This document shows positions 5,639-24,914 of a stretch of 64,000 nt of DNA, in pieces. Every line of letters begins with the position of its first letter. Positions within the stretch are counted from its first letter, which is position 1. This DNA comes from Actinomycetes bacterium. Lineage in GTDB: Bacteria > Actinomycetota > Thermoleophilia > RBG-16-64-13. A program made the position numbers and the translations under genes. Location of the stretch: NCBI GenBank assembly GCA_024637035.1, contig JAGXFW010000020.1, forward strand, positions 62,001 through 126,000. Reading direction: 5' to 3'. The notes beneath the pieces are model-generated. The model searched no databases, was not told the origin of the DNA, and worked only from the letters and a program-made list of their open reading frames with translations.

Positions 5639-5758
5639 ATGACACCGAACGAAGGCGAGTCCCGCCCCGAAGACCTCTTGGCCGACGGTGACCCCGAGAT
5701 CATCGATGAGATCGAAGTGGAAGACCTGGCGGTCGACGGCATCTGCGGCGTGTATTAG
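5639..5758 (+). CDS. mftA: Mycofactocin-type precursor peptide MftA
   Basis: The 39-residue peptide is highly acidic in its leader and ends in A-V-D-G-I-C-G-V-Y followed directly by TAG. The mycofactocin precursor of mycobacteria ends in S-I-D-G-M-C-G-V-Y, so the core and the terminal Val-Tyr pair, which the radical SAM enzyme decarboxylates and cross-links, are conserved. The next genes encode MftB and MftC homologues. ATG 5639 follows a ribosome site in CATGGAGGACC. The two core changes are I for M before the Cys and A-V-D for S-I-D. The gene is small enough to be missed by gene callers. Confidence 0.95.
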   Translation: MTPNEGESRPEDLLADGDPEIIDEIEVEDLAVDGICGVY

Positions 5759-5784
5759 CCGCGCCTGAGTGCCTGAGGTCGCGG

Positions 5785-6033
5785 ATGAAGACCTATCACC
5801 TGGCTCCCTGGGCTCGCGCGCGGCAGGAACGGTTCGGGCTCCTCTTCTACGATACCCGTAGTACCACCATGACCTTCGTGCGCTCGGGCGACCGTCTCGT
5901 CGCTCCCCCGTTCGACGACCGCGCCGTCCCTTTGCGGGTCGTGACGCGCTCGCCGGCCGAGGAGCTTCGCGTGATCCGCGTGCTTGACGGTCTCGAAGCC
6001 AAAGGACTTGTCGTTGCCGCAGAACCTGAGTAG
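5785..6033 (+). CDS. mftB: Mycofactocin peptide chaperone MftB
   Basis: This 82-residue protein has the PqqD-like fold expected of the peptide-recognition element that delivers MftA to MftC. The early segment W-A-R-A-R-Q-E-R-F-G-L-L-F-Y, followed by a short strand and a C-terminal winged-helix-like half (V-I-R-V-L-D-G-L-E-A-K-G), matches the MftB layout. It begins 26 nt after mftA and overlaps mftC by about 50 nt, implying coupled translation. Identification rests mainly on its position between a clear MftA and a clear MftC, plus the conserved R-F-G-L-L-F-Y patch. Confidence 0.88.
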   Translation: MKTYHLAPWARARQERFGLLFYDTRSTTMTFVRSGDRLVAPPFDDRAVPLRVVTRSPAEELRVIRVLDGLEAKGLVVAAEPE

Positions 6034-7114
6034 CGAGCGTCTCGGCGCTCCTGTCAACGTCACCTGGGAGATCACGGACCACTGCAACCTCGGTTGCCGG
6101 CACTGCCTGTCGGCGGATCTGCGTCGAGAGAGCGGGGGAGAGCTCGACCGGGAGCGTTGCGAAACGCTGATCGACGAGTTGGCGGCGCTGCAAGTGTTCC
6201 AGATCAACTTCGGCGGCGGCGAGCCGTTTCTCCGCCCCGATTTCATGGATATCCTCCGCTACGCGCAGACGAAGGGCATCGTCACGTGCGTGAGCACCAA
6301 CGGCACGATGCTCACGCCGGAGCTGGTGGATGAGCTCGTGGGCATGGAGCTGCTGTTCCTGCAGGTGAGCCTCGACGGAGCCCAGGCCGCGACGAACGAC
6401 GCTATCCGAGGTGAGGGCACCTTCGAACGGATCCTGGAGGGTGTGTCGCTGCTCTCCCGACGCTCGTTTCCCGATCTGAGCCTCAACATGGTGGTCACCA
6501 GCGTGAACTTCGAGGAGATCGGGGAGTTCCACCGGCTGGCGGACTCATTCGGGGCGCGCACGCGCCTCTCCCGCTTCCGTCCTTCAGGCGACGGGTCGCG
6601 TATGTGGGAGCAGTACCGCCTGAGCCGCGACCAGCTCGCCTGGCTGTCGGGCTTCCTGGGGGAGAACCCGGGCATCCTCACCGGCGACTCCTTCTTCTCG
6701 CTCACCAACGCCGACCGTCAGACGCAGGGGCTGCGCACCTGCGGTGCGGCCCGCATGACCTGTGCCGTAGGCCCGGACGGAAGCGTGTTCCCGTGCGCCT
6801 TCCTCTGCGACCCGGCCTTCCTGGCCGGGAACGTGGTGGAGGAGTCGCTGGGCGCCATCTTCGAGAACGCCCTCATCATGCGGACGCTCCGAGATCTCGA
6901 GGTCGAACCCTGCCAGACGTGCGACCGGTTCTCACTCTGCAACGGCGGGTGTCCCGCGGTGGCCTACTTTGTCACCGACTCCCTGGGTCTGCCCGATCCC
7001 GAGTGCCTGCGGGTTGCGATACCTGGACCGGGCATCCCCGGACCGGGTATCCCCGCACCGGGCACCCCTGTAGCGGAGCACCTGTCGGCCCCCGAACGCG
7101 CGGAGGTGGCGTGA
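5984..7114 (+). CDS. mftC: Radical SAM/SPASM mycofactocin maturase MftC
   Basis: The product is about 376 residues. The radical SAM cluster motif is C-N-L-G-C-R-H-C (CX3CX2C, about residues 34-41), followed by G-G-G-E-P. A SPASM region near the C-terminus carries C-G-A-A-R-M-T-C, C-x-x-C, C-N-G-G-C and P-D-P-E-C. Stretches such as L-T-G-D-S-F-F match mycobacterial MftC. The enzyme decarboxylates the C-terminal Tyr of MftA and cross-links it to Val. Start is uncertain: TTG 5984 gives the N-terminal length seen in homologues; TTG 6008 or 6014 are alternatives. The tail contains three 15-bp tandem repeats giving G-P-G-I-P units, absent from known MftC. Confidence 0.93.
   Translation: MTVSKPKDLSLPQNLSSERLGAPVNVTWEITDHCNLGCRHCLSADLRRESGGELDRERCETLIDELAALQVFQINFGGGEPFLRPDFMDILRYAQTKGIVTCVSTNGTMLTPELVDELVGMELLFLQVSLDGAQAATNDAIRGEGTFERILEGVSLLSRRSFPDLSLNMVVTSVNFEEIGEFHRLADSFGARTRLSRFRPSGDGSRMWEQYRLSRDQLAWLSGFLGENPGILTGDSFFSLTNADRQTQGLRTCGAARMTCAVGPDGSVFPCAFLCDPAFLAGNVVEESLGAIFENALIMRTLRDLEVEPCQTCDRFSLCNGGCPAVAYFVTDSLGLPDPECLRVAIPGPGIPGPGIPAPGTPVAEHLSAPERAEVA
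7025..7069 (+). repeat. Three 15-bp tandem repeats in the 3' end of mftC
   Basis: Units at 7025-7039, 7040-7054 and 7055-7069 differ by a few bases and keep the reading frame, encoding a Pro/Gly-rich tail. This looks like slippage expansion in a non-essential C-terminus. Confidence 0.85.
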
Positions 7115-9063
7115 TGCAGTTCCCCCTTCTGTTCTCGCCGTTACGCATCGGCCGGGTCGAGGTAGCCAACCGGATATCGTTCTCGGCGCACCTCACCAAC
7201 CTCGCCGAGCACGGTCTGCCCACCGACCGACTCACCCACTACCTCGCCGCCCGTGCCCGGGGTGGCGCCGGCCTCATCATCACCGAGGAACAGTCAGTGC
7301 ATCCCACCGACAGGGCCTACGAGCACCTGATCGAGGCCTTCCTCCCCGAGGTGGTGGCGGAGTACCGGAAGCTCACCCGGGCGGTGCACGAGTTCGACAC
7401 GCGCATCTTCGCGCAGCTGAACCACAACGGTCAGCAGTGTAGCGGGGCCCTTTCCCGCCTGCCCGTGTGGGCGCCATCCGCCGTGCCCGATGTCCTGTAC
7501 CGGGAAGTGCCCAAGGTCATGGAGCCCGAGGACATCGCCGAGGTGATCGACTACTTCCAGCGCTCCGCGGTGCACGTGCGCGAGGGCGGGTTCGACGGCG
7601 TGGAACTGCAGTTCGGGCACAGTTCTCTGGCCCGGCAGTTCATGTCGCCCCTCACCAACTACCGCGACGACGAGTATGGCGGCGATGCCGAGAAACGGCT
7701 GCGCTTCCCGCTGGAACTGGTCGCCGCCGTCCGGAGGGCGCTCGGCTCCGACTACACGCTGGGCGTGCGCCTCTGCGCCGACGAACTCATCCCCGGAGGG
7801 CTCACTCTCGACGACGCGAAGGTGATCGCTCGGCGGATGGAAGACACCGGGCATCTGGACTTCATCAACCTCACCCTCTCCACCTTCTACAACCTGCACC
7901 TGGTGGGCGGCACCATGCACCTGCCGCTGGGGTACACGGTGCCGCTGGCGGCCGGCGTCAAGGAAGCCGTTTCCCTGCCCGTGTTCGCCACGGGCCGCAT
8001 CAACGACCCGGCCCTGGCGGAGCGCGTGCTGGCCGACGGCCAGGCCGACATGATCGGCGTGGTGCGCGGACAGATAGCCGACCCCGATTTCGCGCGGAAG
8101 GCCCGGGACGGTCGCACCGACGACATCCGCTACTGCATCGCCTGCAATCAGAACTGCTACGGCCGAGTGGGGCTCAATCGCTCCATCGGGTGTGTGCAGA
8201 ACCCGGCGGTGGGCGTGGAGGCGATCGAGGGCGAGCGGTGGCTGAAGCCCACCCGGAACCGCAAGCGCGTGATGGTGATAGGTGGCGGTCCGGCTGGCAT
8301 GTGGGCGGCGAAGGTCGCGGCGCTGCGGGGACACGACGTGACCCTGTACGAGAGGGGTGGCGAACTGGGTGGTCAGGTGCTGATCGCCGCCAAGGGAGCC
8401 GGTCGCGACGAGTTCGGGGTGATCGTGCGGAACGAACGCAACCAGCTCGAGCCGGCGGGCGTGTCTGTGATGCTCGGCACCGAGGTGACGCCCGAACTGG
8501 TGGCCGGGGCGAAGCCCGACGCGGTGATCGTGGCCACGGGGTCTCGGCCGAAGGCGTGCCCAGTCGCCGGCGGCGACGGGCCCGACGTCGTGAACGTCTG
8601 GCAGGTGCTGCGCGACGAGGTGACCCTGGGTGAGCGGGTGGCGCTGATCGACTACGACGGACACCACCAAGCCACCGCGACCGCCGAGACGCTCGCCGAC
8701 AGGGGCAAGACCGTACATGTGGTGACCTCCAGCCTGTTCGTGGGCTCGGAGTTGGGCCCGTCCCAAGACCTTTATCTCTCTCGGCAACGCCTGCTGCAGA
8801 AGGGAGTGACCTTCACCCCCGACTTCGCGGTGATGGAGATCAAGGGCACCGAGATCCACGGCTTCAACGTGTACTCGAACGAGTGGGACGTCCTCGGCCC
8901 TTACGACACCGTGGTGACCGCCATGGGCAACGATGCCGACGACTCCCTCTACTTCGCTCTGAAGGGGACGGTGCCGGAGCTCTACCGGGTGGGTGACTGC
9001 GTAGCGCCCCGCAAGGTGGATATGGCCATCCTCGAGGGATACACGGCCGGCAAGCGGGTATGA
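7114..9063 (+). CDS. FadH/old-yellow-enzyme-type FMN/FAD/4Fe-4S oxidoreductase of the mft locus
   Basis: The 649-residue protein has an N-terminal OYE-type TIM barrel (about 1-350; H-N-G-Q-Q motif near 110, F-G-H-S-S near 168). Next comes a 4Fe-4S site in C-I-A-C-N-Q-N-C-Y with a later C (near 345-370), then a NAD(P)/FAD region with G-G-G-P-A-G near 390. This is the architecture of 2,4-dienoyl-CoA reductase FadH, trimethylamine dehydrogenase and related enzymes. Members tied to mycofactocin loci are a recognised subfamily. ATG 7114 overlaps the mftC stop. Trimethylamine-dehydrogenase-like enzymes pass electrons to ETF, which fits the ETF genes that follow. Its role in peptide maturation or in oxidising the mature carrier is inference. 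Confidence 0.88.
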   Translation: MQFPLLFSPLRIGRVEVANRISFSAHLTNLAEHGLPTDRLTHYLAARARGGAGLIITEEQSVHPTDRAYEHLIEAFLPEVVAEYRKLTRAVHEFDTRIFAQLNHNGQQCSGALSRLPVWAPSAVPDVLYREVPKVMEPEDIAEVIDYFQRSAVHVREGGFDGVELQFGHSSLARQFMSPLTNYRDDEYGGDAEKRLRFPLELVAAVRRALGSDYTLGVRLCADELIPGGLTLDDAKVIARRMEDTGHLDFINLTLSTFYNLHLVGGTMHLPLGYTVPLAAGVKEAVSLPVFATGRINDPALAERVLADGQADMIGVVRGQIADPDFARKARDGRTDDIRYCIACNQNCYGRVGLNRSIGCVQNPAVGVEAIEGERWLKPTRNRKRVMVIGGGPAGMWAAKVAALRGHDVTLYERGGELGGQVLIAAKGAGRDEFGVIVRNERNQLEPAGVSVMLGTEVTPELVAGAKPDAVIVATGSRPKACPVAGGDGPDVVNVWQVLRDEVTLGERVALIDYDGHHQATATAETLADRGKTVHVVTSSLFVGSELGPSQDLYLSRQRLLQKGVTFTPDFAVMEIKGTEIHGFNVYSNEWDVLGPYDTVVTAMGNDADDSLYFALKGTVPELYRVGDCVAPRKVDMAILEGYTAGKRV

Positions 9064-10103
9064 GCGGCGGCGCCGACGTTCTGGCGGTACTCGTGCCCGA
9101 GATCGAGGGGCGCGACGGCGCTGCCGCCGTGCTCCTTGCCGAGGCGACACGTGTCGCCCTCGCTCTGGGCGGGGAACCGACCGCCGTGGAACTCGGGCCT
9201 GGCGCCGCCCATTCCACCTCGGGTCGTCCCCTGGATGTCGAGTCGTGCGTGCGGGCGCTCGCCGCCCACGTGGGTGCGTCGCGACCACGTGTCGTCCTCA
9301 TGCTCGACGGTGACCTGAGTCGCGAACTCGCTCCTCGTCTAGCTGTGGCCTGCGGCAGTGCGGCGGTGGTGGGCTGCACAGGGATCGCCGTCGTGGGGGA
9401 TGCCCTGACCTACTCGAAACCTGTGTACGGCGGCTGGCTCGAGGAGGAACTGGGCTACGCCGGCGGATCGCTCGAGGTTGCGACACTCGACCCCGGAGCT
9501 CTTTCGCTTGCGACGCCCGGCGCGACGGACCCCTCGACGGACCCCTCGACGGACTCCTCGACGGACTCCTCGACGGCGGAGGTGGCCGTAACCATGCTGG
9601 AGGTCGGCGCAGGAGCAGCCGCCCCCGCCATCCGTCGCCTGGAGATGCGCCCCCCTGACTATCGCACCGTCGACATCGTGCACGCCAAGCGGATCGTGGC
9701 CGTGGGCATGGGCGTTATCGCCCCGCCGACTTCGCCGAGCGGCGCGGACCGGCCGCATGCCGGCGGTGAGGGACTGCTGGCCGACGCGAAAAGGTTGGCC
9801 GCCCTGCTGGAAGGCTCGATCGCCGCGACCCGTCCGGTGGTGGACGAGGGCCGTCTCCCCAAGGAGCGACTCGTCGGGCAGACGGGACGCACGGTCGCCC
9901 CGGAACTTTATCTGGCGCTGGGCATCTCCGGGTCGCCGCACCACGTCGCCGGCATCCAAGGCGCCAAGACCATCCTGGCTGTCGATCGGGACTCCGCCGC
10001 TCCCGTGTTCCAGTTCGCGGACGCCGGTTATGTGGCCGACCTCCGCGACATCCTGCCTGCACTTGTCCGGCGTATCGAGGAGTGGCGTGATGGCGGCGAC
10101 TGA
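9060..10103 (+). CDS. etfA: Electron transfer flavoprotein alpha subunit (EtfA/FixB)
   Basis: A 347-residue EtfA. The N-terminal domain is variable. The C-terminal FAD-binding domain carries the family signature G-Q-T-G-R-T-V-A-P (about 275), L-G-I-S-G-S-P-H-H near 292 and A-G-Y-V-A-D-L near 330. It would hold the electron-shuttling FAD and pair with the EtfB encoded three genes downstream. The ATG overlaps the preceding stop (ATGA). A 12-bp repeat array at 9524-9576 inserts D-P-S-T/D-S-S-T repeats in the linker between domains. Placement inside the mft operon suggests dedicated electron transfer for that system. Confidence 0.92.
   Translation: MSGGADVLAVLVPEIEGRDGAAAVLLAEATRVALALGGEPTAVELGPGAAHSTSGRPLDVESCVRALAAHVGASRPRVVLMLDGDLSRELAPRLAVACGSAAVVGCTGIAVVGDALTYSKPVYGGWLEEELGYAGGSLEVATLDPGALSLATPGATDPSTDPSTDSSTDSSTAEVAVTMLEVGAGAAAPAIRRLEMRPPDYRTVDIVHAKRIVAVGMGVIAPPTSPSGADRPHAGGEGLLADAKRLAALLEGSIAATRPVVDEGRLPKERLVGQTGRTVAPELYLALGISGSPHHVAGIQGAKTILAVDRDSAAPVFQFADAGYVADLRDILPALVRRIEEWRDGGD
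9524..9576 (+). repeat. Four-plus copies of a 12-bp tandem repeat inside etfA
   Basis: GACGGACCCCTC and the variant GACGGACTCCTC occur twice each in direct succession, plus a partial copy, in frame, coding a Thr/Asp/Ser/Pro linker between the two EtfA domains. Confidence 0.9.
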
Positions 10104-11391
10104 GTTCGACGCGGTCGTCGTCGGTGCCGGCCCGGCAGGCTCCATCGCTGCCCTCACGCTCGCGCAGAAGGGCGTCAAGACGCTCCTGCTGGAGCGCGGT
10201 GAGCGCCCGGGCGCCAAGAACATGTTCGGCGGTACCCTGGCCTGGTGTCCCGCGCCGGAGGAGCTGATCCCCGGCTTCTGGGAGAAGGCTCCGTGGGAGC
10301 GTGAGGTGGTCAAGCGGACCCTGACCGTGGTGGCCGAGACCTCGGCCACGTCGATGGTGTTCCGCTCCGATGACGTCGGCCGGCCCTTCCGGGGCCGGGT
10401 CACTCTCTTCCGCCCCGCCTTCGACGGCTGGCTGGCCGCCCAGGCGCAGGCGGCCGGGGCCACCGTGGTGTGCGGCTGCACTGTCGAGGGTCTCGTGGTG
10501 CGCGACGGCCGGGTGTGCGGTGTGCGGGTAGGTGGTCCGAACGGCGTGGTGGAGGCGCCGCTGGTCGTGGCGGGAGACGGCGCCCTCTCGTTCCTCGCCA
10601 AGGAGGCCGGCCTCCACGCCGGTGTGCGTGCGGAGCAGATGGCGGTGGGCGTCCGTGGCCTCTACGCGCTCGACGCCGAAGAGATCGATGGGCGTTTCGG
10701 CCTCGTCCGGGGGCAGGGGGCCACCAACGAGTATCTCGGCGGCACCGACGGCGTGCGTGGCGGCGGCTTCGTCTACACCCAGACTGAGAGCCTTTCGGTG
10801 GGTCTCGTGCTCCATCTGGACTCGCTGAAGGCGTCCGGACTCGCCCCGTACGATCTCCTGGAGCGGTTCGTGGGCTCGGTGCACGTGGCGCCACTGCTTC
10901 GCGGGGCCCAGCTCGTTGAGTATTCCGCTCATCTCTTGCCTGAAGCGGGCCTCTCCATGGTGCCCCGGCTTTCGATGGGTGGGATGCTCGTGGCCGGAGA
11001 CGCCGGTGGCCTGTGCTACACCAACGGCCTGACGCAGGAGGGCATGAACTTGGCGTTGACTTCCGGCCACCTGGCCGGGCTCGTGGGTGCGGAGGCGCTT
11101 GAGGTGCGAGACATGTCGGCCGCCCGCCTAGCCGCATACGACGAGCGGCTGCGCGAGAGTTTCGTGTTCCGCGATCTCAAGACCTACGATCGGGCGATCA
11201 AACTCCTCCGGCGTGACCGACTGTTCTCCGACTACCCCGAGGTGGTTGGGGCGATCATGGAGCAACTCTACGCGTCTGACGGCGCCCCGAAGCGCAGGGT
11301 CGGCGCCATCGCCCGCAATGCCCTTCGCGACCGCATCTCGATCCGCGAGACGTTGGCCGACCTGATTCGGATTGGGAGGTCGTACCTGTGA
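10090..11391 (+). CDS. fixC: FixC/ETF-quinone oxidoreductase-like FAD protein
   Basis: The 433-residue protein has an N-terminal FAD-binding motif V-V-G-A-G-P-A-G (residues 10-17) with E-R-G at the second strand's end. The G-D-A-G-G motif near 300 (L-V-A-G-D-A-G-G-L) is typical of the GR2 flavoprotein fold, and overall length matches FixC. FixC accepts electrons from ETF and passes them with FixX to quinone. ATG 10090 overlaps etfA by 14 nt. The pair fixC-fixX sits between etfA and etfB rather than after both as in the classical fixABCX order. Confidence 0.9.
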   Translation: MAATEFDAVVVGAGPAGSIAALTLAQKGVKTLLLERGERPGAKNMFGGTLAWCPAPEELIPGFWEKAPWEREVVKRTLTVVAETSATSMVFRSDDVGRPFRGRVTLFRPAFDGWLAAQAQAAGATVVCGCTVEGLVVRDGRVCGVRVGGPNGVVEAPLVVAGDGALSFLAKEAGLHAGVRAEQMAVGVRGLYALDAEEIDGRFGLVRGQGATNEYLGGTDGVRGGGFVYTQTESLSVGLVLHLDSLKASGLAPYDLLERFVGSVHVAPLLRGAQLVEYSAHLLPEAGLSMVPRLSMGGMLVAGDAGGLCYTNGLTQEGMNLALTSGHLAGLVGAEALEVRDMSAARLAAYDERLRESFVFRDLKTYDRAIKLLRRDRLFSDYPEVVGAIMEQLYASDGAPKRRVGAIARNALRDRISIRETLADLIRIGRSYL

Positions 11392-11663
11392 ACCTAGACG
11401 ACATCTTCGATCTGGTGAGCTATCGCATCCACCCCGAGGCACACATCGTGGTGGACTACAGCACGTGCCCATCCTGTCCCCATCGGGCGTGCACCTTCGC
11501 CTGCCCCGCTCGCTGCTACGAGTGGAACGACGCCCGGGACCGCGTGGACTTCGCTTACGAGTCGTGCCTGGAATGCGGCACGTGTCTCCTCGTGTGCGAC
11601 CCCGGGGCCTTGACGTGGAACTACCCCGCCGGAGGGTACGGCGTGAGATTCCGGGCGACGTAG
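11388..11663 (+). CDS. fixX: FixX-type ferredoxin
   Basis: This 91-residue ferredoxin-like protein has a C-terminal C-L-E-C-G-T-C-L-L-V-C-D cluster site (CX2CX2CX3C). Its N-terminal set of cysteines (T-C-P-S-C, A-C, A-C-P-A-R-C-Y) follows the FixX pattern. It closes with W-N-Y-P-A-G-G-Y-G-V, diagnostic for FixX. It supplies the iron-sulfur step of the FixC/FixX quinone reductase, equivalent to the C-terminal domain of single-chain ETF-QO. GTG 11388 overlaps the fixC stop by four bases. Confidence 0.93.
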   Translation: MNLDDIFDLVSYRIHPEAHIVVDYSTCPSCPHRACTFACPARCYEWNDARDRVDFAYESCLECGTCLLVCDPGALTWNYPAGGYGVRFRAT

Positions 11664-11664
11664 G

Positions 11665-12648
11665 ATGAGAATCCTCGTCCTACTGGAGTCGGCGGATGAT
11701 GTGCGCATCCCACCCTGGAGAGACCCACGCTCCGGCCGCGTGCGACCGGAATGGCAGGTGCCTCGACTGGAACCGGGCTGCGCGCGCGCGCTCGACCTTG
11801 CGCTCGAGTTGAAGGAGGCCGCGTCCGAGCCTGTGGTTGAGTACGATACTGAGGCCGCGTCCGAGGAGGGCGGCGGGCCGCGCGCGGCCGCCGAGGTTGA
11901 GGTCGTTGCGCTGACCATCGGCCCCGAGGAGGGCGATCGTCTCCTTCGTGACGCCCTCGCTCGCGGCTGCGACGAGGTGATCCGAGTGTGGTCCGCGGAG
12001 TGCGTGGGACTGCACGCTCCAGGCAAGGCGGTGGTCTTGGCGGCCGCGGCCCGGGCGGCTCGCTGCGACGTGGTCTTGGCCGGCACCTCCAGTCCTACGA
12101 CCGCGTCCGCGCAGGTGGGCGTGCTTGTCGCGGAGCACCTGCACCTACCGTGCGTGACCCAGGTGGTGGAGTTCGACGCGACGCAGGACGACGCCGGGCC
12201 GGCGCCGGGCTCAGTGCGTGCGGTGCGGGGCTTGGCCGGGGGTTTTCGTGAGGTGGTCGAGGTGTCGTTGCCCGCGGTGCTGACCGTGCTTGCCGGTGAA
12301 CTGGACTCGACGTCGGCCTCGCTTCCCGCGGTGCTTGGCGCGCAGGTCGCTTCGGTCCCTCTGTGGGATCTGGCCGAACTGGGGGTGCCCATCGAGGATG
12401 TGCGTCGGGCGGAGCGCCCCCTGTGCCACCTGGGTGTGCGCGTCCCGCGGCCGGCCGTGCGGCGTGTGCCTGCCCCCGACCCCGACGAATCGGCCTTCAA
12501 CCGGATCGGGGAGCTTGTGCGTGGGACCGTGCGGCGGCGGGAGGGGCGGGTGGCCGAGGGGTCTCCCGAAATCCTGGCAGGCGAGTTGTTCCAGGCGCTC
12601 CGCGACGGCGGGTGGCTGGATCACCTACGTCAGGAGGAGAGGGAGTGA
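11665..12648 (+). CDS. etfB: Electron transfer flavoprotein beta subunit (EtfB/FixA-like), extended
   Basis: The 327-residue product is longer than usual EtfB (about 255-285). The ETF beta/adenine-nucleotide fold is seen around residues 75-185, with D-x-V-L-A-G-T-S-S near 135 and an L-P-C-V-T segment near 160. Extra length lies in an N-terminal insertion around 50-70 and a C-terminal extension with R-R-R-E-G-R. The gene starts 1 nt after fixX. Whether it binds FAD (bifurcating type) or AMP cannot be settled by eye. With EtfA, FixC and FixX it completes a four-component ETF system inside the mft operon. Confidence 0.85.
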   Translation: MRILVLLESADDVRIPPWRDPRSGRVRPEWQVPRLEPGCARALDLALELKEAASEPVVEYDTEAASEEGGGPRAAAEVEVVALTIGPEEGDRLLRDALARGCDEVIRVWSAECVGLHAPGKAVVLAAAARAARCDVVLAGTSSPTTASAQVGVLVAEHLHLPCVTQVVEFDATQDDAGPAPGSVRAVRGLAGGFREVVEVSLPAVLTVLAGELDSTSASLPAVLGAQVASVPLWDLAELGVPIEDVRRAERPLCHLGVRVPRPAVRRVPAPDPDESAFNRIGELVRGTVRRREGRVAEGSPEILAGELFQALRDGGWLDHLRQEERE

Positions 12649-14198
12649 TCGGGTCGAACACGATCCCGCTGTCGTACCGCCTCCGAGCTGGGGTGCGCGT
12701 CGAGGAGGACGCAGGGGGGTGGAGGGCGGTGTGCGAATTGCCCCTTGCGGTCATGCGGGTGAACCTCGCGGCCGCGAGGTTGCTGGAGCTGACCAGAGAG
12801 GGCTGTGCGGTGCAGGATCTCGCCGCCGCCCTGTCCGTCGATCAAGAGCGCATCCTCCTCCTGTGCGAGAGGTTCCGGAGCCGAGGCCTGCTCGAAGTGG
12901 ATCTCATGCCGGCTGGGATCGCCGGCGCGTCGGCCGCTCCGCCATCTGTCACGGTGATCGTGCCGACCAAGGACCGGGCGGACGAACTCGACGACTGCCT
13001 CACCGCTCTCTTTGCCCTGGACTATCCCGGGGAGCGCCTCGAGGTGATCGTCGTTGACGACGGGTCCACCGACGGGACCGCGGGGGTGGCGCACAGGCAC
13101 CCGTGTGTCTATCTTGCCAACGACCGGAATCGCGGACAGTCGTACTCCCGCAACGCCGGGGCGCGTATCGCCTCGGGAGAGATACTGGCCTTCATCGACA
13201 GCGATTGCGTGCCCTCCGTGGAGTGGCTGAGCGACCTCGTACCCTTCTTCTCGTGGTCGAAGATAGCCGCGGTGGGCGGCTTCGTCGCGGGCTACCACGC
13301 CGACTCCCGACTCGATCGATACGAGCAGGTCGCTTCTTCCCTCAACATGGGGGGTCGGATGATCCTCATGACCGACGACCGATCCATGTCGTACGTACCC
13401 ACGTGTAACCTGCTCGTTCGGAGGGATGTCTATCGGGCCGAGGGTGGGCTTCGGGAAGAGATGCGCGTGGGTGAGGATGTCGATCTATGTTGGCGGCTGC
13501 GGGGGGCCGGATGGAACCTGGTCTACTCACCCACCGGCACGGTGTGGCATCGTCACCGCAACCGACTCAGCGAGATGCTCCGGCGACGCGCGGCGTACGG
13601 TACCTCTGAGGCGCTGCTTCATGGGCTCCATCCCGAGAAACGCAAGACGATGCCGGTGCGCCTGCTCCCGTTGCTGACCGCCGGGTTGGTCGCCGCGGGG
13701 GTGTTGGGACTAGAACCGCGGCTGCTCCCTCTCGCTCTCATGCCCGTGGTCGCAGACGGGGTTCGCGCCACCCTCCGTTTGACACGGGAAGGTGCTGGGG
13801 TCCGTGTGAGCCGGGTGTGGTTCTCGGTGGTCAGGGGCCACCTGTCGTTCCTCTACTCCGTGGCGTTCCATCTGGTCCGCTACTACCTGCTCGTGTTGGT
13901 CGCGGCCGGGTTCGTGGTTCCCGGCTTCTGGGTTCTGGCGGCGGCGGCGCTGCTCTACGTGGTGACGGTCGATGTTTCGGCAAAGCGGCCGCGTCTGGCC
14001 TTTCCCGTCTACCTCTGGTTCTCTCTGGCGGAGCACATGGCGTACCAGGCCGGGGTGGTCGCCGGGTGTGTGCGCAAGCGCTCCTTCCGCTCCTACCTGC
14101 TTCGGTTCGCCCGCACTGCTAACCCGGAGCGAGCGGATAGCACCCCCAATTCCGCTCCTCCTCCGATCTCTCTTCGGAAGGCTGCGTCAGGTTCCTAG
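12645..14198 (+). CDS. mftF: Mycofactocin glycosyltransferase MftF
   Basis: The 517-residue protein has an N-terminal PqqD/MftB-like domain of about 90 residues and a family-2 glycosyltransferase domain starting at T-V-I-V-P-T-K-D-R (about 103), with V-V-D-D-G-S-T-D-G-T and the D-S-D metal motif in F-I-D-S-D-C. Several transmembrane helices follow (about 335-480). This fused layout is specific to MftF, which decorates the mature redox cofactor with glucose units. GTG 12645 overlaps the etfB stop and is preceded by GGAGGAG. It is the last gene of the operon. No mftD (FMN oxidase) or mftE (creatininase-like peptidase) homologue is in the window. Confidence 0.92.
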   Translation: MIGSNTIPLSYRLRAGVRVEEDAGGWRAVCELPLAVMRVNLAAARLLELTREGCAVQDLAAALSVDQERILLLCERFRSRGLLEVDLMPAGIAGASAAPPSVTVIVPTKDRADELDDCLTALFALDYPGERLEVIVVDDGSTDGTAGVAHRHPCVYLANDRNRGQSYSRNAGARIASGEILAFIDSDCVPSVEWLSDLVPFFSWSKIAAVGGFVAGYHADSRLDRYEQVASSLNMGGRMILMTDDRSMSYVPTCNLLVRRDVYRAEGGLREEMRVGEDVDLCWRLRGAGWNLVYSPTGTVWHRHRNRLSEMLRRRAAYGTSEALLHGLHPEKRKTMPVRLLPLLTAGLVAAGVLGLEPRLLPLALMPVVADGVRATLRLTREGAGVRVSRVWFSVVRGHLSFLYSVAFHLVRYYLLVLVAAGFVVPGFWVLAAAALLYVVTVDVSAKRPRLAFPVYLWFSLAEHMAYQAGVVAGCVRKRSFRSYLLRFARTANPERADSTPNSAPPPISLRKAASGS

Positions 14199-14272: not shown

Positions 14273-14989
14273 CTACCCCTCCGCGTCCTGGCGCGCCTGG
14301 GCTATCCGCGCCTCCATGTTCTGCAGATGCCGAGCCATCTCCTGTGCCGCGCCGGCGGGGTCGTGCGCGGCGATTCGGTCGAGGATGCGCTCGTGGTCAT
14401 CGAGGATCTCTTGGAGGGCGCCTTCCTGGGCGATCAGTTCGTTGGTCTCTTTCTTCAAGGAGTTGCGTACGGAGGTTATGACGTCGACGAAGACCTCGTT
14501 CTTGGCGGCTTCGGCGATGAGCAAGTGGAAGCCCACGTCCTGATCGATGAAGCGTGCAGGTATGCCCGTCACGTTGCGCATGCGATCCAGTTCTTCCCGC
14601 AGCACGGCTATCTCGTGGTCCTCCGCTCGCGCGGATGCCAGTTCGGCGGCCCTTGTCTCGATGAGCTTGCGCGCCTCCATCAGCTGCTCCCAGCCGGTGG
14701 TGGCCCGTCCGAACGGAGTGGTAGCGGCGAACGAATCCGCGGGGTCGGGGGGCTTGACGAAGGTGCCGCCGTTATAGCCGCGCTTCACGTACAGGAAGCC
14801 GGTGAGCTCGAGCACCTTCAAGGCCTCTCGTATGGCCGAGCGACCTACATTGAACTGCTTGGCGAGCTCCGTCTCGCTGGGCAGCCTCTGGTCCGGCTGC
14901 AAGTTGCCCAGGAGGATCTCACGTTGGATACTGTTAGCCACCTTCTCGAAGAAACGCTCGTTCTTGAGCGCTTTGAACATCTTCGCCAT
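14273..14989 (-). CDS. FadR-type GntR-family transcriptional regulator (FCD domain)
   Basis: The 238-residue protein has a winged HTH at about residues 10-78, with the GntR signature L-P-S-E-T-E-L-A-K-Q-F-N-V-G-R-S-A-I-R-E. An all-helical FCD ligand domain follows (about 95-220), with R-x-x-x-E-x-x-A-A near 125, D-x-x-F-H near 150 and D-D-H-E near 195; the Asp/His set usually binds a metal that senses a carboxylate. It is divergent from the VOC gene across a 217-nt spacer holding a strong promoter and an operator-like site. A near-copy precedes the CoA ligase gene. It is the likely regulator of the catabolic genes to its right (inference). Confidence 0.93.
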   Translation of the reverse strand: MAKMFKALKNERFFEKVANSIQREILLGNLQPDQRLPSETELAKQFNVGRSAIREALKVLELTGFLYVKRGYNGGTFVKPPDPADSFAATTPFGRATTGWEQLMEARKLIETRAAELASARAEDHEIAVLREELDRMRNVTGIPARFIDQDVGFHLLIAEAAKNEVFVDVITSVRNSLKKETNELIAQEGALQEILDDHERILDRIAAHDPAGAAQEMARHLQNMEARIAQARQDAEG

Positions 14990-15088
14990 CGATGGTCACC
15001 TACGCCTTCCGCCCGGTCGGTAGCGTTTCGATGGGACCCCCCCAGTGAAGTTGGACGGGGAGGCTGTTGCTCGCATTTCGCGAGGTCG

Positions 15089-15118
15089 TTGACAGCCGAC
15101 GTCCAAGCCGCCTATCAT
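15089..15118 (+). promoter_or_regulatory. Promoter of the VOC gene
   Basis: TTGACA (15089-15094), an 18-base spacer and TATCAT (15113-15118) form a near-consensus housekeeping promoter about 90 nt before the VOC start. The same hexamers and spacing recur at 15665-15694. Confidence 0.8.
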
Positions 15119-15123
15119 CCTAT

Positions 15124-15138
15124 CGTCAGACCTCAGAT
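15124..15138. promoter_or_regulatory. Operator-like site overlapping the VOC transcription start
   Basis: CGTCAGACCTCAGAT begins 5 bases after the -10 hexamer, with GTCAGAC 6 bases after it, so a bound protein would block initiation. GTCAGAC fits the T-N-G-T-N3-A-C core bound by many FadR-type GntR regulators, and the gene for such a regulator is the divergent neighbour. Binding is inferred. Confidence 0.55.
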
Positions 15139-15206
15139 GTAGTCAACGTGCCGGCGCGGGCAGTGTCGGGCACGGCGGCGACCGGGCCGCGGCGAGGAGA
15201 GCGCGC

Positions 15207-15668
15207 GTGATCACCGGGATCCACCACACTTGCTTGACCGTCAGCGACCTCGAGCGTTCCATCGACTTCTATAGTCGCTTCCTGGACGCGGAGGTCGTGT
15301 GGGATTCGGAGGCCGTCGGGCTGAAGCTCGAGGGTCCGATGGCCGACATGGTCACGGGCTGCCCAGGGACGAGCCAGCGGGTCGTCTACCTGCAGGCGGG
15401 GGGAGACCTGTTCGAGCTGATGGCCTTCACTCCGACGGGTCGGCAGCCGGAGGGCAATCTCTCGAGCGATGTCGGTAGTCCGCATGTCTGCTTCCTTACC
15501 GACGACATCGACGAACTGTACGAGAGACTCCTTGCGGCCGACGTCGTGCTGCACTGCCCGCCGCAGGATCTGGGTGACACCCGCTTGTTCTACTTCCGAG
15601 ATCCGGACGGCATCATCCTCGAGGCGATGGGCGGTACTCCAACCGTAGAGGGCCCTCGTTCAGGTTGA
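15207..15668 (+). CDS. VOC (glyoxalase/dioxygenase superfamily) protein
   Basis: This 153-residue protein has two beta-alpha-beta-beta-beta modules. The opening G-I-H-H-T-C-L-T-V-S-D-L-E-R-S-I-D-F-Y and the closing F-Y-F-R-D-P-D-G-I-I-L-E are typical, with metal-ligand candidates at H6, E72 and the final E. Members include glyoxalase I, methylmalonyl-CoA epimerase and ring-cleaving dioxygenases, so the reaction is open. GTG 15207 follows GAGGAG. It is separated from paaK by its own strong promoter, yet both promoters share an operator-like motif, which suggests co-regulation. Confidence 0.88.
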   Translation: MITGIHHTCLTVSDLERSIDFYSRFLDAEVVWDSEAVGLKLEGPMADMVTGCPGTSQRVVYLQAGGDLFELMAFTPTGRQPEGNLSSDVGSPHVCFLTDDIDELYERLLAADVVLHCPPQDLGDTRLFYFRDPDGIILEAMGGTPTVEGPRSG

Positions 15669-15694
15669 CACGTAGTGCACCCGCCGCATATCAT
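15665..15694 (+). promoter_or_regulatory. Promoter of the CoA ligase/carboxylase operon
   Basis: TTGACA (15665-15670) and TATCAT (15689-15694) with an 18-base spacer are identical in hexamers and spacing to the VOC promoter 576 bases upstream. The -35 box overlaps the VOC stop codon. Confidence 0.8.
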
Positions 15695-15700
15695 CGCTGT

Positions 15701-15715
15701 TGTCAGACATTAGAC
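15701..15715. promoter_or_regulatory. Operator-like site after the second promoter
   Basis: TGTCAGACATTAGAC starts 7 bases after the -10 hexamer. It shares GTCAGAC and a following T-x-A-G-A with the site at 15124-15138, in the same orientation and nearly the same place relative to the promoter. Confidence 0.55.
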
Positions 15716-15865
15716 TTCCTCATGCTCGTGTATCCGCGGGCAGTGTAGCGAGGTCGGGGCTGCCGGCGACGCCGCAGCCCGTCATCGGGGGGATGCCGAG
15801 TAGGAGCGTGGCCGACGATCGGCAGCGGCCGCTTCTGCTGGGACCAATCGGGAAGGGGAGAAGCC

Positions 15866-17200
15866 TTGGGGGAAGATTTCCTGAACCGTGAGATGGAGAC
15901 GATGACTCCTTCGGAGTTGGTCGCCGTCCAGGAGTCCAAGCTACGGGAGCAGGTGGAGTACGTCTGCGAACGTTCGCCCTTCTACCAGCGGAAGTTCGCC
16001 GAAGCCGGACTGAAGACCGGCGATGTGACGACGCTCGAGGGTCTGGCTCGTCTACCGTTCACCACCAAAGAGGAGCTGCGCGACAGTCAGCTGTCCGATC
16101 CACCCCTTGGCAACCATGCGGCGGCTCCCATGAGCGATGTGATCCGCATCCACTCCTCCACCGGCACCACCGGGCGTCCGAGCTACGTGGGCATCACGCG
16201 CCACGACGCTTCCGTCTGGATGGACCTCACCACCCGCTCGCTCTACACCCAAGGAGTGCGCAAGGAGGACATCGTCATACACGCGGTGGGCTTGACCATG
16301 TTCGTGGGGGGCCTGCCCGTGAAGGACGCGACTGAGCACTTGGGGGCCACCCTCGTACCCATCGGGACAGGGGCCTCGGAGAAGGTGGTGATGGCGCTTC
16401 AGTCGCTGCGCGCCAACGTGCTCCACTGCACCCCCTCCTACGCCATGTACCTGGCCGAGTATGTGCGCTCTCATTATGGCCTGGACCCTAAGGAACTGGG
16501 ACTCGAGCGCATCATCAGCGGGGCTGAGCCGGGGGCCGGTATCCCCGCTGTCCGCCAGCGCATCGAGAGTGATTGGGGGGTGAGACTCACCGAGGGCTTG
16601 GGGAACGCCGACATGGCGCCCATCATCTTCGGCGAATGCCCCGAGCAGCGCGGGATGCACTTCAACGCCCAGGAATACATCATCCCCGAAATCATCGATC
16701 CCGAGTCGGGCGAACGGCTGTCGATCGAAGAGGGTGTGTCGGGCGAGCTGGTCTACACGGCGATCGACCGAGAGTGCTGTCCCCTCTTGCGTTTTCGCAC
16801 TCGTGACCGGGTCATTGTGACGGCCACGTCCTGTGGCTGCGGACGCACGAGCTTCCAGCTGCGCTGCGTGGGCCGCACCGATGACATGCTTATCGTTCTT
16901 GGGGTCAATGTGTTCCCCTCGGCGGTGAAGGACATCGTGGCCTCTCTCGTGCCGGAGACGACCGGCGAGATGCAGATCGCGCTCGAGAAGCCGGGCCCGG
17001 GGGTGGCCCCGCCCTTGAGGATCATCGCCGAGTATGGAGCGGACGTGAGCGATCTACCGTCGTTGAAGTCGAGACTCGAGGGGCTGATCAAGGATCGGCT
17101 CTCCATTCCCGCCAAGGTCGAACTGGTGCCGCCCGAGACGCTTCCGCGGTATGACATGAAGGGGCAATTGGTTCGCAGACTCTATGAGGAGAGTCGCTAG
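15866..17200 (+). CDS. paaK: Phenylacetate-CoA ligase-like AMP-forming enzyme (PaaK family)
   Basis: A 444-residue acyl-adenylating enzyme. The AMP-binding loop reads H-S-S-T-G-T-T-G-R-P (about residues 92-101). It also has Y-x-x-S-P-F-Y near the N-terminus (E-R-S-P-F-Y-Q-R-K-F), R-F-R-T-R-D-R near 308 and G-R-T-D-D-M-L-I-V-L-G near 335, all PaaK hallmarks. The enzyme would activate an aromatic or related carboxylate to its CoA thioester. TTG 15866 is supported by GGGGAG five bases upstream. It heads the probable operon with the carboxylase genes, as CoA ligases do in acetophenone-type pathways where the carboxylated product is activated next. Substrate is not readable. Confidence 0.88.
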   Translation: MGEDFLNREMETMTPSELVAVQESKLREQVEYVCERSPFYQRKFAEAGLKTGDVTTLEGLARLPFTTKEELRDSQLSDPPLGNHAAAPMSDVIRIHSSTGTTGRPSYVGITRHDASVWMDLTTRSLYTQGVRKEDIVIHAVGLTMFVGGLPVKDATEHLGATLVPIGTGASEKVVMALQSLRANVLHCTPSYAMYLAEYVRSHYGLDPKELGLERIISGAEPGAGIPAVRQRIESDWGVRLTEGLGNADMAPIIFGECPEQRGMHFNAQEYIIPEIIDPESGERLSIEEGVSGELVYTAIDRECCPLLRFRTRDRVIVTATSCGCGRTSFQLRCVGRTDDMLIVLGVNVFPSAVKDIVASLVPETTGEMQIALEKPGPGVAPPLRIIAEYGADVSDLPSLKSRLEGLIKDRLSIPAKVELVPPETLPRYDMKGQLVRRLYEESR

Positions 17201-17289
17201 GGCCGCACGGGTTCCGCGCCACAGGCGGCGTACGAAGTTGCACGGTACACACGGGGCTTCACAGGACGCACGACAGCAGAGGGGGGCTG

Positions 17290-19332
17290 ATGGGTTTCAC
17301 CATCGACATCGACACCGGGGGCACCTTCACCGACGGCTTCTTCACGAGCGATCAGGAGGTGCGCTACGCAAAGGTGCCCACCACCCCGCACGACCTGACG
17401 GTGTGCCTGGTGGACGTGGTGGAGAAGGGGGCGGCGCTCTTCGGGCTGGCCAAGGAGGAGTTCCTGGGGAAGACGGACGTGGTCCGCTATTCGACCACAG
17501 TCGGCACCAACGCCATCATCCAACGCTCGGGACCCAAGCTGGGAGTGGTGGTGACCAAGGGCCACGAGGCCGATCTCTATGGCCCCGCCGGTAGCGGCCT
17601 GGACATGTTCGTGTCAGGGGACATGGTGGTGGGCGTTGAAGAGAATGTGGAGCCCGACGGCGTCATACACGCGCTCGACGTGGGCCAGGCGCTACGCGCC
17701 ATCGAGGATCTGATCGACCGCGGAGCGCGCGCCATCGTGGTGAGCCTGCGGAACGCCTCGTATGACCCGGTGCACGAGCGGGCGATCAAGGACGCCTTCG
17801 AGACAGAGTATCAGCCCCACTATCTGGGCATCGTGCCGCTCATCCTGTCGACCGACCTCTCCCGCCGCCGCGATGATTACAAGCGAACGGCGACCACCAT
17901 CATCAACGCGTACCTTCACCGCGACATGGTGAAGTACCTGTACCGCGGCGACGAGGAACTGCGTCGGTCCTGGTACGATCGCCCGCTGCTCATCACGCAC
18001 TCGAGTGGCGGGACCGCTCGCGTGGCCAAGACCACCGCCCTCAACACGTACAATTCCGGGCCGGCCGCAGGGATGCTGGGAAGCGCCCGCATCGCGGAGA
18101 TGTACGGTCTGCCCAACCTGATCAGCACCGATATGGGTGGCACCAGCATGGACATCGGCTTCATCGTCGATGGCGCCTACGACTACGAGATCGAGCCGAC
18201 CATCGAGGGGATCCCCGTCTACCTGCCCATGATCGAGGTGGACACCATCGGGGCGGGCGGCGGCTCCATCGCCTGGGTCGACCCGGTCAGCGGCTCCGTA
18301 GAGGTAGGCCCGCAGAGCGCCGGCGCCCAACCGGGGCCCGCGGCCTTCGATCTAGGCGGCACCGAGCCCACTGTCACCGACGCAGACATCGTCCTCGGCT
18401 ACATCGACGTGGATGGCTTCCTCGGCGGGACGATGAAGTTGGACCGCGACAAGGCCGTCCGGGCCATCGCCGACCGCATCGCGACCCCACTCTCCATCTT
18501 CGTGGAAGAGGCCGCCCTCGCCATCAAACAGAAGGTGGACGGCAACATCGGCGCCCGCATCGCGGCGGAGGTCGCCGACCTGGGTCGGGACGCGGGCGAG
18601 TTCACCCTGCTGGCGTACGGCGGAGCTGGAGCCACCCACTGCTGCGGCTACGCGGCGGCGCTCGGCGTCGATCGCATTGTCACCTTCCCCTACTCGGCCG
18701 TGTTCAGCGCCTTCGGGTCTTCCACGGCCGACGTCATGCACTACTACACACACACCGAGCCGATGGCCGCCCGCTCCAAGGAGGGGGGCATCCATGTCTC
18801 GCAGACGGCCCGCTTCAACGAGATCATCGACGATCTGCGGGTGAGGGCCCTTCACGATATCCGCGGCGAGGGCTTCGCCGCCGACGAGGTGATCCTGGAA
18901 CTCGACCTCATCGCCGGGGGAGTGGGTGACGAAGCCCGGTTGGTGCACTCGCCGCTTCTGGAATTCGCCGGCGAGGCGGAACTACGGGCCGTGTGCGACG
19001 CCTGCCTGCCGGGCGCCGACGACGTGGTCTTCGATACCTTCATGTTGCGTGCCCGAGGGGCTGTTCCCCACTGGGAGATCCAAACGTGGGAGCCGGTGGG
19101 TGAGGACCCGTCGGCCGCGATCAAGACGGAGCGACCTGTGTACTGGCCCGGGGGGTTCCGCGATACCGCAGTGTACGACTACGAGCGCCTGCAGGCCGGC
19201 AACGTGGTGAGCGGACCGGCCATCATCGACTCCGACAGCACGACCTACGTCATCCCCGAGGGCGCCCGCCTGACGGTCGACCGCTACCGCAACGGGATCA
19301 TCGAGATCGTCGGGGAAGGGGGGTCCCAGTGA
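17290..19332 (+). CDS. Hydantoinase/oxoprolinase A-type subunit; carboxylase subunit (ApcA-like)
   Basis: The 680-residue HyuA-type protein opens with the sugar-kinase-fold phosphate loop I-D-T-G-G-T-F-T-D-G-F (residues 6-16). It shows S-T-T-V-G-T-N-A near 75, the second loop S-T-D-M-G-G-T-S-M-D near 280, and G-A-G-G-G-S-I-A-W near 320. Such subunits bind and hydrolyse ATP to activate a carbonyl or lactam. The gene is followed with four-base overlaps by a small zinc-type subunit, a second HyuA and a HyuB. That set of four sizes is the acetophenone carboxylase core arrangement, not a simple hydantoinase pair. The actual substrate is unproven. Confidence 0.88.
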   Translation: MGFTIDIDTGGTFTDGFFTSDQEVRYAKVPTTPHDLTVCLVDVVEKGAALFGLAKEEFLGKTDVVRYSTTVGTNAIIQRSGPKLGVVVTKGHEADLYGPAGSGLDMFVSGDMVVGVEENVEPDGVIHALDVGQALRAIEDLIDRGARAIVVSLRNASYDPVHERAIKDAFETEYQPHYLGIVPLILSTDLSRRRDDYKRTATTIINAYLHRDMVKYLYRGDEELRRSWYDRPLLITHSSGGTARVAKTTALNTYNSGPAAGMLGSARIAEMYGLPNLISTDMGGTSMDIGFIVDGAYDYEIEPTIEGIPVYLPMIEVDTIGAGGGSIAWVDPVSGSVEVGPQSAGAQPGPAAFDLGGTEPTVTDADIVLGYIDVDGFLGGTMKLDRDKAVRAIADRIATPLSIFVEEAALAIKQKVDGNIGARIAAEVADLGRDAGEFTLLAYGGAGATHCCGYAAALGVDRIVTFPYSAVFSAFGSSTADVMHYYTHTEPMAARSKEGGIHVSQTARFNEIIDDLRVRALHDIRGEGFAADEVILELDLIAGGVGDEARLVHSPLLEFAGEAELRAVCDACLPGADDVVFDTFMLRARGAVPHWEIQTWEPVGEDPSAAIKTERPVYWPGGFRDTAVYDYERLQAGNVVSGPAIIDSDSTTYVIPEGARLTVDRYRNGIIEIVGEGGSQ

Positions 19333-21832: not shown

Positions 21833-21840
21833 GGGGGACA

Positions 21841-23877: not shown

Positions 23878-23900
23878 GCGAGGGCCGAAGGGGGAGCCCC

Positions 23901-24902: not shown

Positions 24903-24914
24903 TGTGGTGGTGCT

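Follow-up and report, generated by a model that had tools for sequence, protein, structure and literature searches.

A mycofactocin-like operon that lacks mftD and mftE and carries an old-yellow-type oxidoreductase with an ETF-FixCX block

Introduction

Current knowledge of the cofactor mycofactocin rests on mycobacteria, where MftD finishes the cofactor and MftG recycles it. In the published pathway, as given in the accessible part of PMC11778925, MftE releases the cyclised Val-Tyr unit of the precursor peptide and MftD deaminates it to a keto-amide. The same part of that source describes 311 genomes with mftC, about a quarter of which lack MftG, and leaves open what replaces it. The universal markers of mycofactocin operons were set out by Haft 2011 (PMC3023750), who in the part available names clusters of Geobacter and Haloterrigena and reports the MftD and MftE families from most, not all, mycofactocin species. 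Here we describe a mycofactocin-like operon in a stretch of 64,000 nucleotides (hereafter the window; positions 62,001 to 126,000 of contig JAGXFW010000020.1, assembly GCA_024637035.1) from an actinobacterium of the Thermoleophilia. At positions 5639-14198 it encodes an enzyme of the old yellow enzyme (OYE) family and a set of electron transfer flavoprotein (ETF) and FixCX genes, and neither MftD nor MftE.

The names of NCBI models already tie an OYE, EtfA and EtfB to mycofactocin. A word search of the text of PMC3023750 gave no 'old yellow', 'FadH' or 'electron transfer flavoprotein'; the accessible part of PMC7913881 names the OYE family for Pseudomonas reductases alone, and that of PMC5264612 names no OYE. 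Six terms looked for in PMC8406134 gave no hit. Our literature search, which had bioRxiv and most subscription papers outside its coverage, returned nothing joining mycofactocin with electron transfer flavoprotein or ETF. Within the literature searched, three findings reported below appear to be new: the mutual exclusivity, the absence of the block as a cassette, and its two putative quinone outlets.

The operon and its host genome

The nine genes mftA-mftB-mftC-OYE_2-etfA-fixC-fixX-etfB-mftF lie on the forward strand, and all junctions from mftC to mftF overlap or are separated by one base. This confirms the nine-gene mycofactocin-like operon described in an earlier, sequence-only reading of this DNA, with every gene at its place on one strand. 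The features are as follows.

5639-5758, forward: mftA, variant-type precursor peptide of 39 amino acids, C-terminus EIEVEDLAVDGICGVY; NF040489, 34.2 bits (cut-off 30)
5785-6033, forward: mftB, peptide chaperone; TIGR03967, 35.2 bits (cut-off 33)
6023-7114 (start codon not fixed), forward: mftC, radical SAM/SPASM maturase of a divergent clade; TIGR03962, 324.4 bits (cut-off 265)
7114-9063, forward: OYE_2, FMN/4Fe-4S/dinucleotide-domain oxidoreductase of the mycofactocin type; TIGR03997, 941.9 bits (cut-off 793.15)
9060-10103, forward: etfA, ETF alpha with FAD domain; PF00766, 1.2e-23; NF038209, 109.5 bits (cut-off 240)
10090-11391, forward: fixC, FixC-like ETF:quinone oxidoreductase flavoprotein; NF007542, 8.9e-93, 311.3 bits (cut-off 610)
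11388-11663, forward: fixX, 4Fe-4S partner of FixC; NF011993, 6.5e-11, 42.3 bits (cut-off 166)
11665-12648, forward: etfB, divergent ETF beta; PF01012, 2e-23; TIGR04503, 76.6 bits (cut-off 200)
12645-14198, forward: mftF, glycosyltransferase; TIGR03965, 364.4 bits (cut-off 280)

All universal mycofactocin markers were found at the locus: a CGVY-ending MftA, MftB, MftC and MftF. The MftA, ending in DGICGVY, clears only NF040489, the 'variant-type mycofactocin precursor', and falls one bit short of the main model TIGR03969 (score 24, cut-off 25). This C-terminus is almost unchanged across nine relatives with a divergent MftC, and the CxxxCxxC and SPASM cysteines of MftC are invariant in ten sequences including that of the window. 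The OYE exceeds the curated cut-off of TIGR03997, whose title is 'mycofactocin system FadH/OYE family oxidoreductase 2' (mycofact_OYE_2). The best named models of EtfA and EtfB are mft_etfA and mft_etfB, and the top models of the other two proteins are FixC and FixX; all four scores lie under the curated cut-offs. The closest relatives in the PDB are 7koe_C, the FixC of EtfABCX, for FixC (2.6e-60) and 1o94_C, an ETF beta subunit, for EtfB (4.1e-18).

The host genome (34 contigs totalling 3,572,321 bases; completeness rated at 100%, contamination at 1.63%) contains a single MftC over cut-off. A genome-wide search found neither MftE (best 50.1 bits, cut-off 172) nor MftD (best 26.6 bits, cut-off 470.85) over cut-off, and no match to MftG at E<=1e-60. 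Since both the MftD and the MftE family occur in most but not all mycofactocin species (Haft 2011, PMC3023750, part available), their absence does not exclude the locus from the mycofactocin operons. An alternative would be that the locus is an accessory copy, with a canonical mftD-mftE system elsewhere in the genome. We found no point in its favour, and with only one MftC and neither MftD nor MftE above the cut-offs in a genome rated complete (a second mftA was not searched for) it is refuted for the present assembly unless the genes fall in an assembly gap; we regard its probability as negligible. The earlier claim of a variant redox-peptide system is thus supported.

Conservation of the operon

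Among 149 genomes, the host included, 13 encode an MftC over cut-off. These split into ten divergent proteins (323-356 bits, including that of the window) and three canonical ones (646-653 bits). MftE over cut-off was found in none of the ten divergent but in all three canonical genomes, and the same holds for MftD. The gene order of the window recurs in all ten divergent loci as far as the contigs extend; the contig of L051 ends inside the OYE gene, and in L046 mftA stands some 5 kb ahead of mftB, flanked by two Zn-alcohol dehydrogenase genes. In L044 and L047, mftB and mftC share one frame, and these fusions were not used as evidence.

A scan of named genomes with an MftC alignment gave 101 matched loci, the best 80 of which were kept; they come from Thermoleophilia, Goldiibacteriota, Spirochaetes and deltaproteobacterial groups. 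The complete order mftC-OYE-etfA-fixC-fixX-etfB-mftF was found in 44 of these 80 loci, from Thermoleophilia to Geobacter and Anaeromyxobacter, although eight of the 44 are contigs already present in the set of relatives. The survey of other genomes that the sequence-only reading had proposed therefore shows that the order reflects more than chance. Ten of the remaining 36 loci have two OYEs and an EtfA of another form (L064, L066, L072, L074, L076, L077, L079, L080, L123 and L124). In L078, L088 and L134 mftF directly follows mftC, in L067, L069, L070, L073 and L097 mftC has no block next to it, and contig ends truncate the remaining loci.

Mutual near-exclusion of OYE_2 and MftD

Of the 71 named loci outside the family of the window, 50 were covered by genome-wide searches, as were the ten divergent and three canonical genomes. 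OYE_2 was found anywhere in the genome at E<=1e-180 in 46 of the 50 and in all ten divergent relatives, but in none of the three canonical genomes; it exceeded the cut-off in 53 of the 63. The four genomes missed at this limit were G159, G164, G198 and G187, the last of which does hold an OYE at a lower score in its locus L119 (541 bits). Hence, 57 of the 60 divergent-MftC genomes carry OYE_2 (56 at E<=1e-180 plus G187). MftD was over cut-off in only three of the 50: G159 (L078), G164 (L088) and G179 (L110). This amounts to one of the 57 genomes with OYE_2 (G179) versus two of the three without it (Fisher p = 0.005, uncorrected for kinship). This near-exclusion supports the earlier claim that the OYE-ETF-FixCX block stands in the place of MftD.

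MftE was over cut-off in none of the 50 genomes, and in none of the 60 divergent-MftC genomes as a whole. Subthreshold creatininases, which are weaker matches of the MftE type, occur in 26 of the 50 genomes with up to 170.4 of the required 172 bits. As candidates for a disguised MftE they were not supported, with 5 of 14 control genomes matching at the same limit, though those of the two best, G156 and G157, might still be such an enzyme. For MftG, none of the 25 divergent-MftC genomes tested (of 60) matched at E<=1e-60, and all three canonical genomes did (389.4, 377.2 and 225.2 bits, one of them over the cut-off of 387.45). This limit is unspecific, as Escherichia coli and two other controls also match, and the evidence on MftG is weaker than that on MftD.

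A survey of the phylum (396 genomes) found OYE_2 over cut-off in nine genomes and at E<=1e-150 in 36. Two of the nine are the window's host and G006; MftD was over cut-off in none of the other seven. A canonical-type MftC lies beside the block in L196, L199 and L201, with MftE near the latter two. L197 has the block and MftE, with no MftC in view, and L195 is a short contig. G237 combines MftD with a weaker OYE (562.1 of 793 bits).

Absence of the block and probable gain of MftD

In three loci the block is missing as a unit. L088 and L094 share 84% DNA identity in both flanks, but where L094 has 5.5 kb between mftC and mftF, L088 has 95 bases. Likewise, 36 bases are left in L078 compared with L075, and 145 in L134 compared with L131. 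Two of these three cassette-less genomes, both Desulfuromonadales (G159 with L078 and G164 with L088), encode MftD, in each case on the operon's own contig. In the MftC tree the block-bearing L094 groups with the block-less L088, and then with the block-less L078 (support 97/84 for the three, bootstrap not settled), so that at least two changes occurred in this clade. The MftDs of G159 and G164 are only 68% identical while their MftCs are 84% identical, and each of these MftDs is 67.5-68.4% identical to an actinobacterial MftD. Because of the difference between the MftD and the MftC identities, MftD was likely gained twice, separately.

Plasmids

The plasmids in PLSDB provide the cleanest test of exclusivity. 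Twelve records match canonical MftC at E<=1e-50, a query that a divergent MftC may escape, and all twelve carry exactly one of OYE_2 and MftD (eight versus four). The eight OYE_2 records are six Streptomyces plasmids, Haloterrigena turkmenica and Halolamina, with OYE_2 proteins 40-50% identical to that of the window and no MftD at E<=1e-80. The four MftD records belong to Tsukamurella, Mycolicibacterium chubuense, Streptomyces NBC_00080 and Thermomicrobium, and none of them is among the 29 records matching OYE_2 at E<=1e-100. Two further MftD-like matches, from Sphingopyxis (53% identity), have no MftC.

The gene order tells the same story. On the plasmid of Streptomyces NBC_00080, mftG is followed by mftA-B-C-D-E-F, with mftD between mftC and mftE. 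Five of the six block-bearing Streptomyces plasmids were viewed, and these read mftA-B-C, OYE, OYE_2, etfA, fixC-like, fixX-like, etfB, mftE, followed by mftF in four of the five; the first OYE is named OYE_1 in three of them, and in CP016083 OYE_2 is unannotated and in two pieces. Neither mftD nor mftG lies within about 9 kb of the block on these five. Haloterrigena has the block with mftE and Halolamina the block with a creatininase-family gene, with mftD in view of neither. Thermomicrobium has MftD with two NDMA-dependent alcohol dehydrogenases, and no mftE in view. Because the block stands near MftE or a creatininase-family gene on plasmids, it seems to replace MftD, and perhaps MftG, but not MftE. 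The suggestion that it replaces MftE as well was not borne out, as Streptomyces plasmids and a haloarchaeon have the block plus MftE.

Probable electron outlets of the block

In five loci (L064, L066, L072, L074 and L079) the slot of FixC and FixX is taken by two other proteins, a multihaem cytochrome c and one of about 625 amino acids. In L079 the latter shows five hydrophobic stretches within the first 202 residues as well as CCG and 4Fe-4S domains, and its best solved relative is the mycobacterial EtfD 9ojn (1e-94). EtfD connects ETF to menaquinone (PMC13083937, part available). Since two unrelated putative ETF:quinone outlets occupy one slot, electrons presumably leave via ETF to quinone, and the earlier proposal of a direct wiring to ETF and quinone gains support.

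In L045 (8900-17445, genome G005), FixC and FixX form a single frame. We dropped it as a telling fusion, as it is possibly a sequencing error: this locus also has split genes for OYE, EtfA and MftF.

Active site of OYE_2

The best solved relatives of OYE_2 are NCR (6qkg, the nearest), which we take to be 2-naphthoyl-CoA reductase, a dienoyl-CoA reductase, histamine dehydrogenase and trimethylamine dehydrogenase (TMADH). In 42 chosen homologues, two of them archaeal, eight polar residues are invariant: His26, Thr28, Gln101, His104, His169, Asp223, Glu224 and Arg318. The position of the Tyr to which we ascribe the catalytic role in ene-reductases is Ser in 40 and Gly in two of the 42. In the third domain the GxGxxG motif for NAD(P)H is replaced, as in TMADH and histamine dehydrogenase, and the ETF genes adjoin the OYE_2 gene. 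The residues Cys30 and Tyr169-His172-Asp267 of TMADH, presumably its FMN-link and catalytic residues, align with Leu27, Gln166, His169 and Val264 of the window's OYE_2, and only His172 is kept. The idea of a TMADH-like flavoenzyme is thus not supported as regards the active site, while the third domain resembles that of TMADH in having lost the motif. TMADH-like amine chemistry as such was rejected, and we retain TMADH as an analogy alone.

Cys344 (window 8143-8145), one of four presumed 4Fe-4S cysteines of OYE_2, is replaced by Asp in 12 of the 42 homologues and also in the first OYE of Desulfobacteraceae-type loci. This pattern suggests an Asp-ligated or three-iron cluster in these proteins.

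Neighbouring genes and further loci

Zn-alcohol dehydrogenase genes lie directly upstream of mftA in six of nine loci of the window's family; in the host genome the nearest one lies beyond the window, some 15 kb upstream of mftA. Among the 79 loci compared, Fe-alcohol dehydrogenase clusters occur in 15 and aldehyde ferredoxin oxidoreductase in 33, both clusters being named from one member each. The NDMA-type alcohol dehydrogenase TIGR03989 matched at E<=1e-90 in all ten divergent and all three canonical genomes, and in two of the eight MftC-less family members given (G013 left out). It was rejected as a partner: E. coli and Synechococcus match too, and the best scores in the divergent genomes (314-338 bits in nine, 391 in the tenth) stay below the 440 needed. 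Only the position of dehydrogenase genes next to mftA is therefore used here. The NDMA methanol dehydrogenase TIGR04266 was found in one of 21 genomes, a canonical one.

Two loci carry additional sets of these genes. L158 (4911-10870, genome G012, C117) is a second mftA-OYE-etfA-fixC-fixX-etfB set with its own MftA ending in EIEIEQLAVDGICGVY; no mftB, mftC or mftF was seen within 17 kb, and a Zn-alcohol dehydrogenase lies about 5 kb off. L159 (7700-16467, genome G001, C9, from the window's genus) is a second, divergent mycofactocin locus with an MftA ending in DFEEISIDGICGVY, where only about the first 60 residues of MftC were found; OYE, ETF and FixC/X genes and a split mftF come after it. 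Six loci contain members of cluster 26, a second radical SAM/SPASM protein of about 380 amino acids, for instance between mftC and mftF in L064 (11083-12216) and just after mftF in L078 (12508-13641) and L110 (18347-19546). A protein of 200-230 amino acids (cluster 10) occurs in 23 loci (e.g. L100, 11452-12153), adjoins the aldehyde oxidoreductase in L113 and L088, and has no Pfam or NCBIfam match at the limits used. In the window itself, the region 3' of the operon (14276-26072) contains a GntR/FCD regulator on the reverse strand, followed by hydantoinase/acetophenone-carboxylase-like genes; URO-D-type and pyruvate:ferredoxin oxidoreductase-type genes also lie in this region.

Proposed route and alternative explanations

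We consider it rather probable that the operon serves to produce and operate a mycofactocin along an alternative route, in which OYE_2 oxidises and/or re-oxidises the cofactor and passes the electrons to quinone. This reading is supported by the gene content, its conservation, the near-exclusion of MftD, an OYE_2 without NAD(P)H motif and two putative alternative outlets to quinone, from which we infer the reaction of OYE_2, its substrate and the electron path. By homology, MftB would present MftA, and MftC would decarboxylate and cross-link its Val-Tyr end. The cross-linked unit might then be freed by some protease other than MftE. OYE_2 would perform the oxidation of amine to keto-amide that MftD performs elsewhere, and/or the re-oxidation of the reduced cofactor known from MftG. 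Its electrons would leave the 4Fe-4S cluster for EtfAB, and FixC/FixX would hand them on to menaquinone, with EtfD as the quinone outlet in other lineages. MftF would attach sugars, and the alcohol dehydrogenases encoded beside many such operons may load the cofactor. Because the block coexists with MftE, and MftD occurs in genomes without MftE over cut-off, OYE_2 most likely acts on the released unit and takes over the step of MftD, that of MftG or both; the sequence cannot separate these.

Several observations weigh against this reading. With Tyr169 and Asp267 of TMADH not kept, a residue-by-residue comparison gives no support for amine oxidation. A respiratory outlet of its own also seems lavish for a step that takes place once per molecule, which favours recycling. 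As for the distribution, G179 has the block plus two copies of MftD, on contigs of 4.9 and 15.3 kb, which might represent either an in-between state or contamination, and G198 has neither OYE_2 nor MftD. In L069, L070 and L073 an OYE is found elsewhere in the genome and not beside mftC, and in two of the seven actinobacterial loci (L198 and L200) OYE_2 has no other mft gene within 20 kb. In the two genomes with MftD in place of the block, MftG was not matched at E<=1e-60. Moreover, most genomes are draft metagenome-assembled genomes of unstated completeness, and the plasmid counts cover the plasmid records alone, other replicons of the same strains not having been searched.

The last point on MftG bears on a narrower explanation, which has a real though clearly smaller chance of being right: OYE_2-ETF-FixCX might replace only MftG, while the MftD step is performed by an unrecognised enzyme or is not needed. 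All 25 divergent genomes tested lack an MftG match, and mftG stands beside mftA on the MftD-type Streptomyces plasmid, whereas none of the five block-bearing plasmids viewed has an mftG annotated nearby. About 25% of mftC genomes have no MftG, with the replacement left open (eLife 2025, PMC11778925, part available), and a complete line from ETF to quinone fits a steady flux. Yet, the two block-less genomes carry MftD and not MftG, and these operons contain no further conserved flavoenzyme for the MftD step. Alternatively, since MftE is over cut-off in none of the 60 genomes of the clade tested, the cross-linked core might never be cut free; the working cofactor would then stay on MftA, dock on OYE_2 and, as a peptide-tethered carrier, deliver its electrons directly to ETF and quinone. 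In that case the satellite set of G012 (L158) would be a second carrier with its own receiver. We find this improbable; two genomes without MftE acquired MftD, whose known substrate is the freed unit.

Other explanations separate the flavoenzymes from the cofactor. One is that the OYE acts as a catabolic reductase of an enone or dienoyl-CoA substrate and merely shares the operon, which is quite unlikely: the ene-reductase Tyr and the NAD(P)H motif are both gone, OYE_2 occurs in mft operons from actinobacteria to archaea, and MftD is nearly excluded. Likewise, EtfAB-FixCX might be a bifurcating Fix complex supplying low-potential ferredoxin, for instance to MftC, with the OYE as a separate enzyme. 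FixC is indeed closest to the FixC of EtfABCX 7koe, and EtfABCX is an electron-bifurcating complex (PMC10734219, part available). According to the same part of that source, bifurcation requires the Arg of the RPXFGG motif. Matched by motif rather than by structure, this Arg is Lys in six of seven readable sequences, including KPVYGG in EtfA of the window, and Arg in L049; in EtfB, the RXGV and GXXSPTXV motifs could not be made out by eye. In addition, FixCX is swapped for an EtfD-type protein in other loci, and block and OYE are absent as a single unit in three. A bifurcating complex is therefore disfavoured, and judged from these motifs and gene arrangements it would be very unlikely.

If the alternative route is true, it would represent another way of making or recharging mycofactocin, perhaps one independent of oxygen, and a new use for an old-yellow-type enzyme paired with ETF. 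The five-gene cassette offers a concrete candidate answer for the quarter of MftC genomes without MftG.

Comparison with known systems

Compared to the canonical mftABCDEF operon with mftG, as on the plasmid of Streptomyces NBC_00080, the window shares a CGVY-ending precursor, MftB, MftC and MftF. It differs in lacking MftD, MftE and MftG over cut-off, in having OYE_2, EtfAB and FixCX, and in the divergent type of its MftA and MftC. The NCBI-annotated form of the Streptomyces plasmids without mftD has the same block in the same slot and order, but keeps MftE and has a second OYE and a canonical MftC.

The deltaproteobacterial clusters, such as those of Geobacter that Haft 2011 (PMC3023750) was the first to list, contain the same nine genes in the same order with the same type of MftA. 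In contrast to these, the window is actinobacterial, near Thermoleophilia, and the aldehyde oxidoreductase and Fe-alcohol dehydrogenase neighbours of the Geobacter type are not seen beside its operon. With EtfABCX/FixABCX the window has EtfA, EtfB, FixC and FixX all together in common, although it is without the bifurcation motifs and its block is joined to an OYE and mft genes. Finally, OYE_2 resembles TMADH and histamine dehydrogenase in combining FMN with 4Fe-4S, in a third domain without NAD(P)H motif and in its ETF partner genes, and the EtfB of the window is closest to 1o94_C, which comes from the TMADH-ETF structure entry. It differs from TMADH in having no FMN link of the Cys30 type and in not keeping Tyr169 and Asp267.

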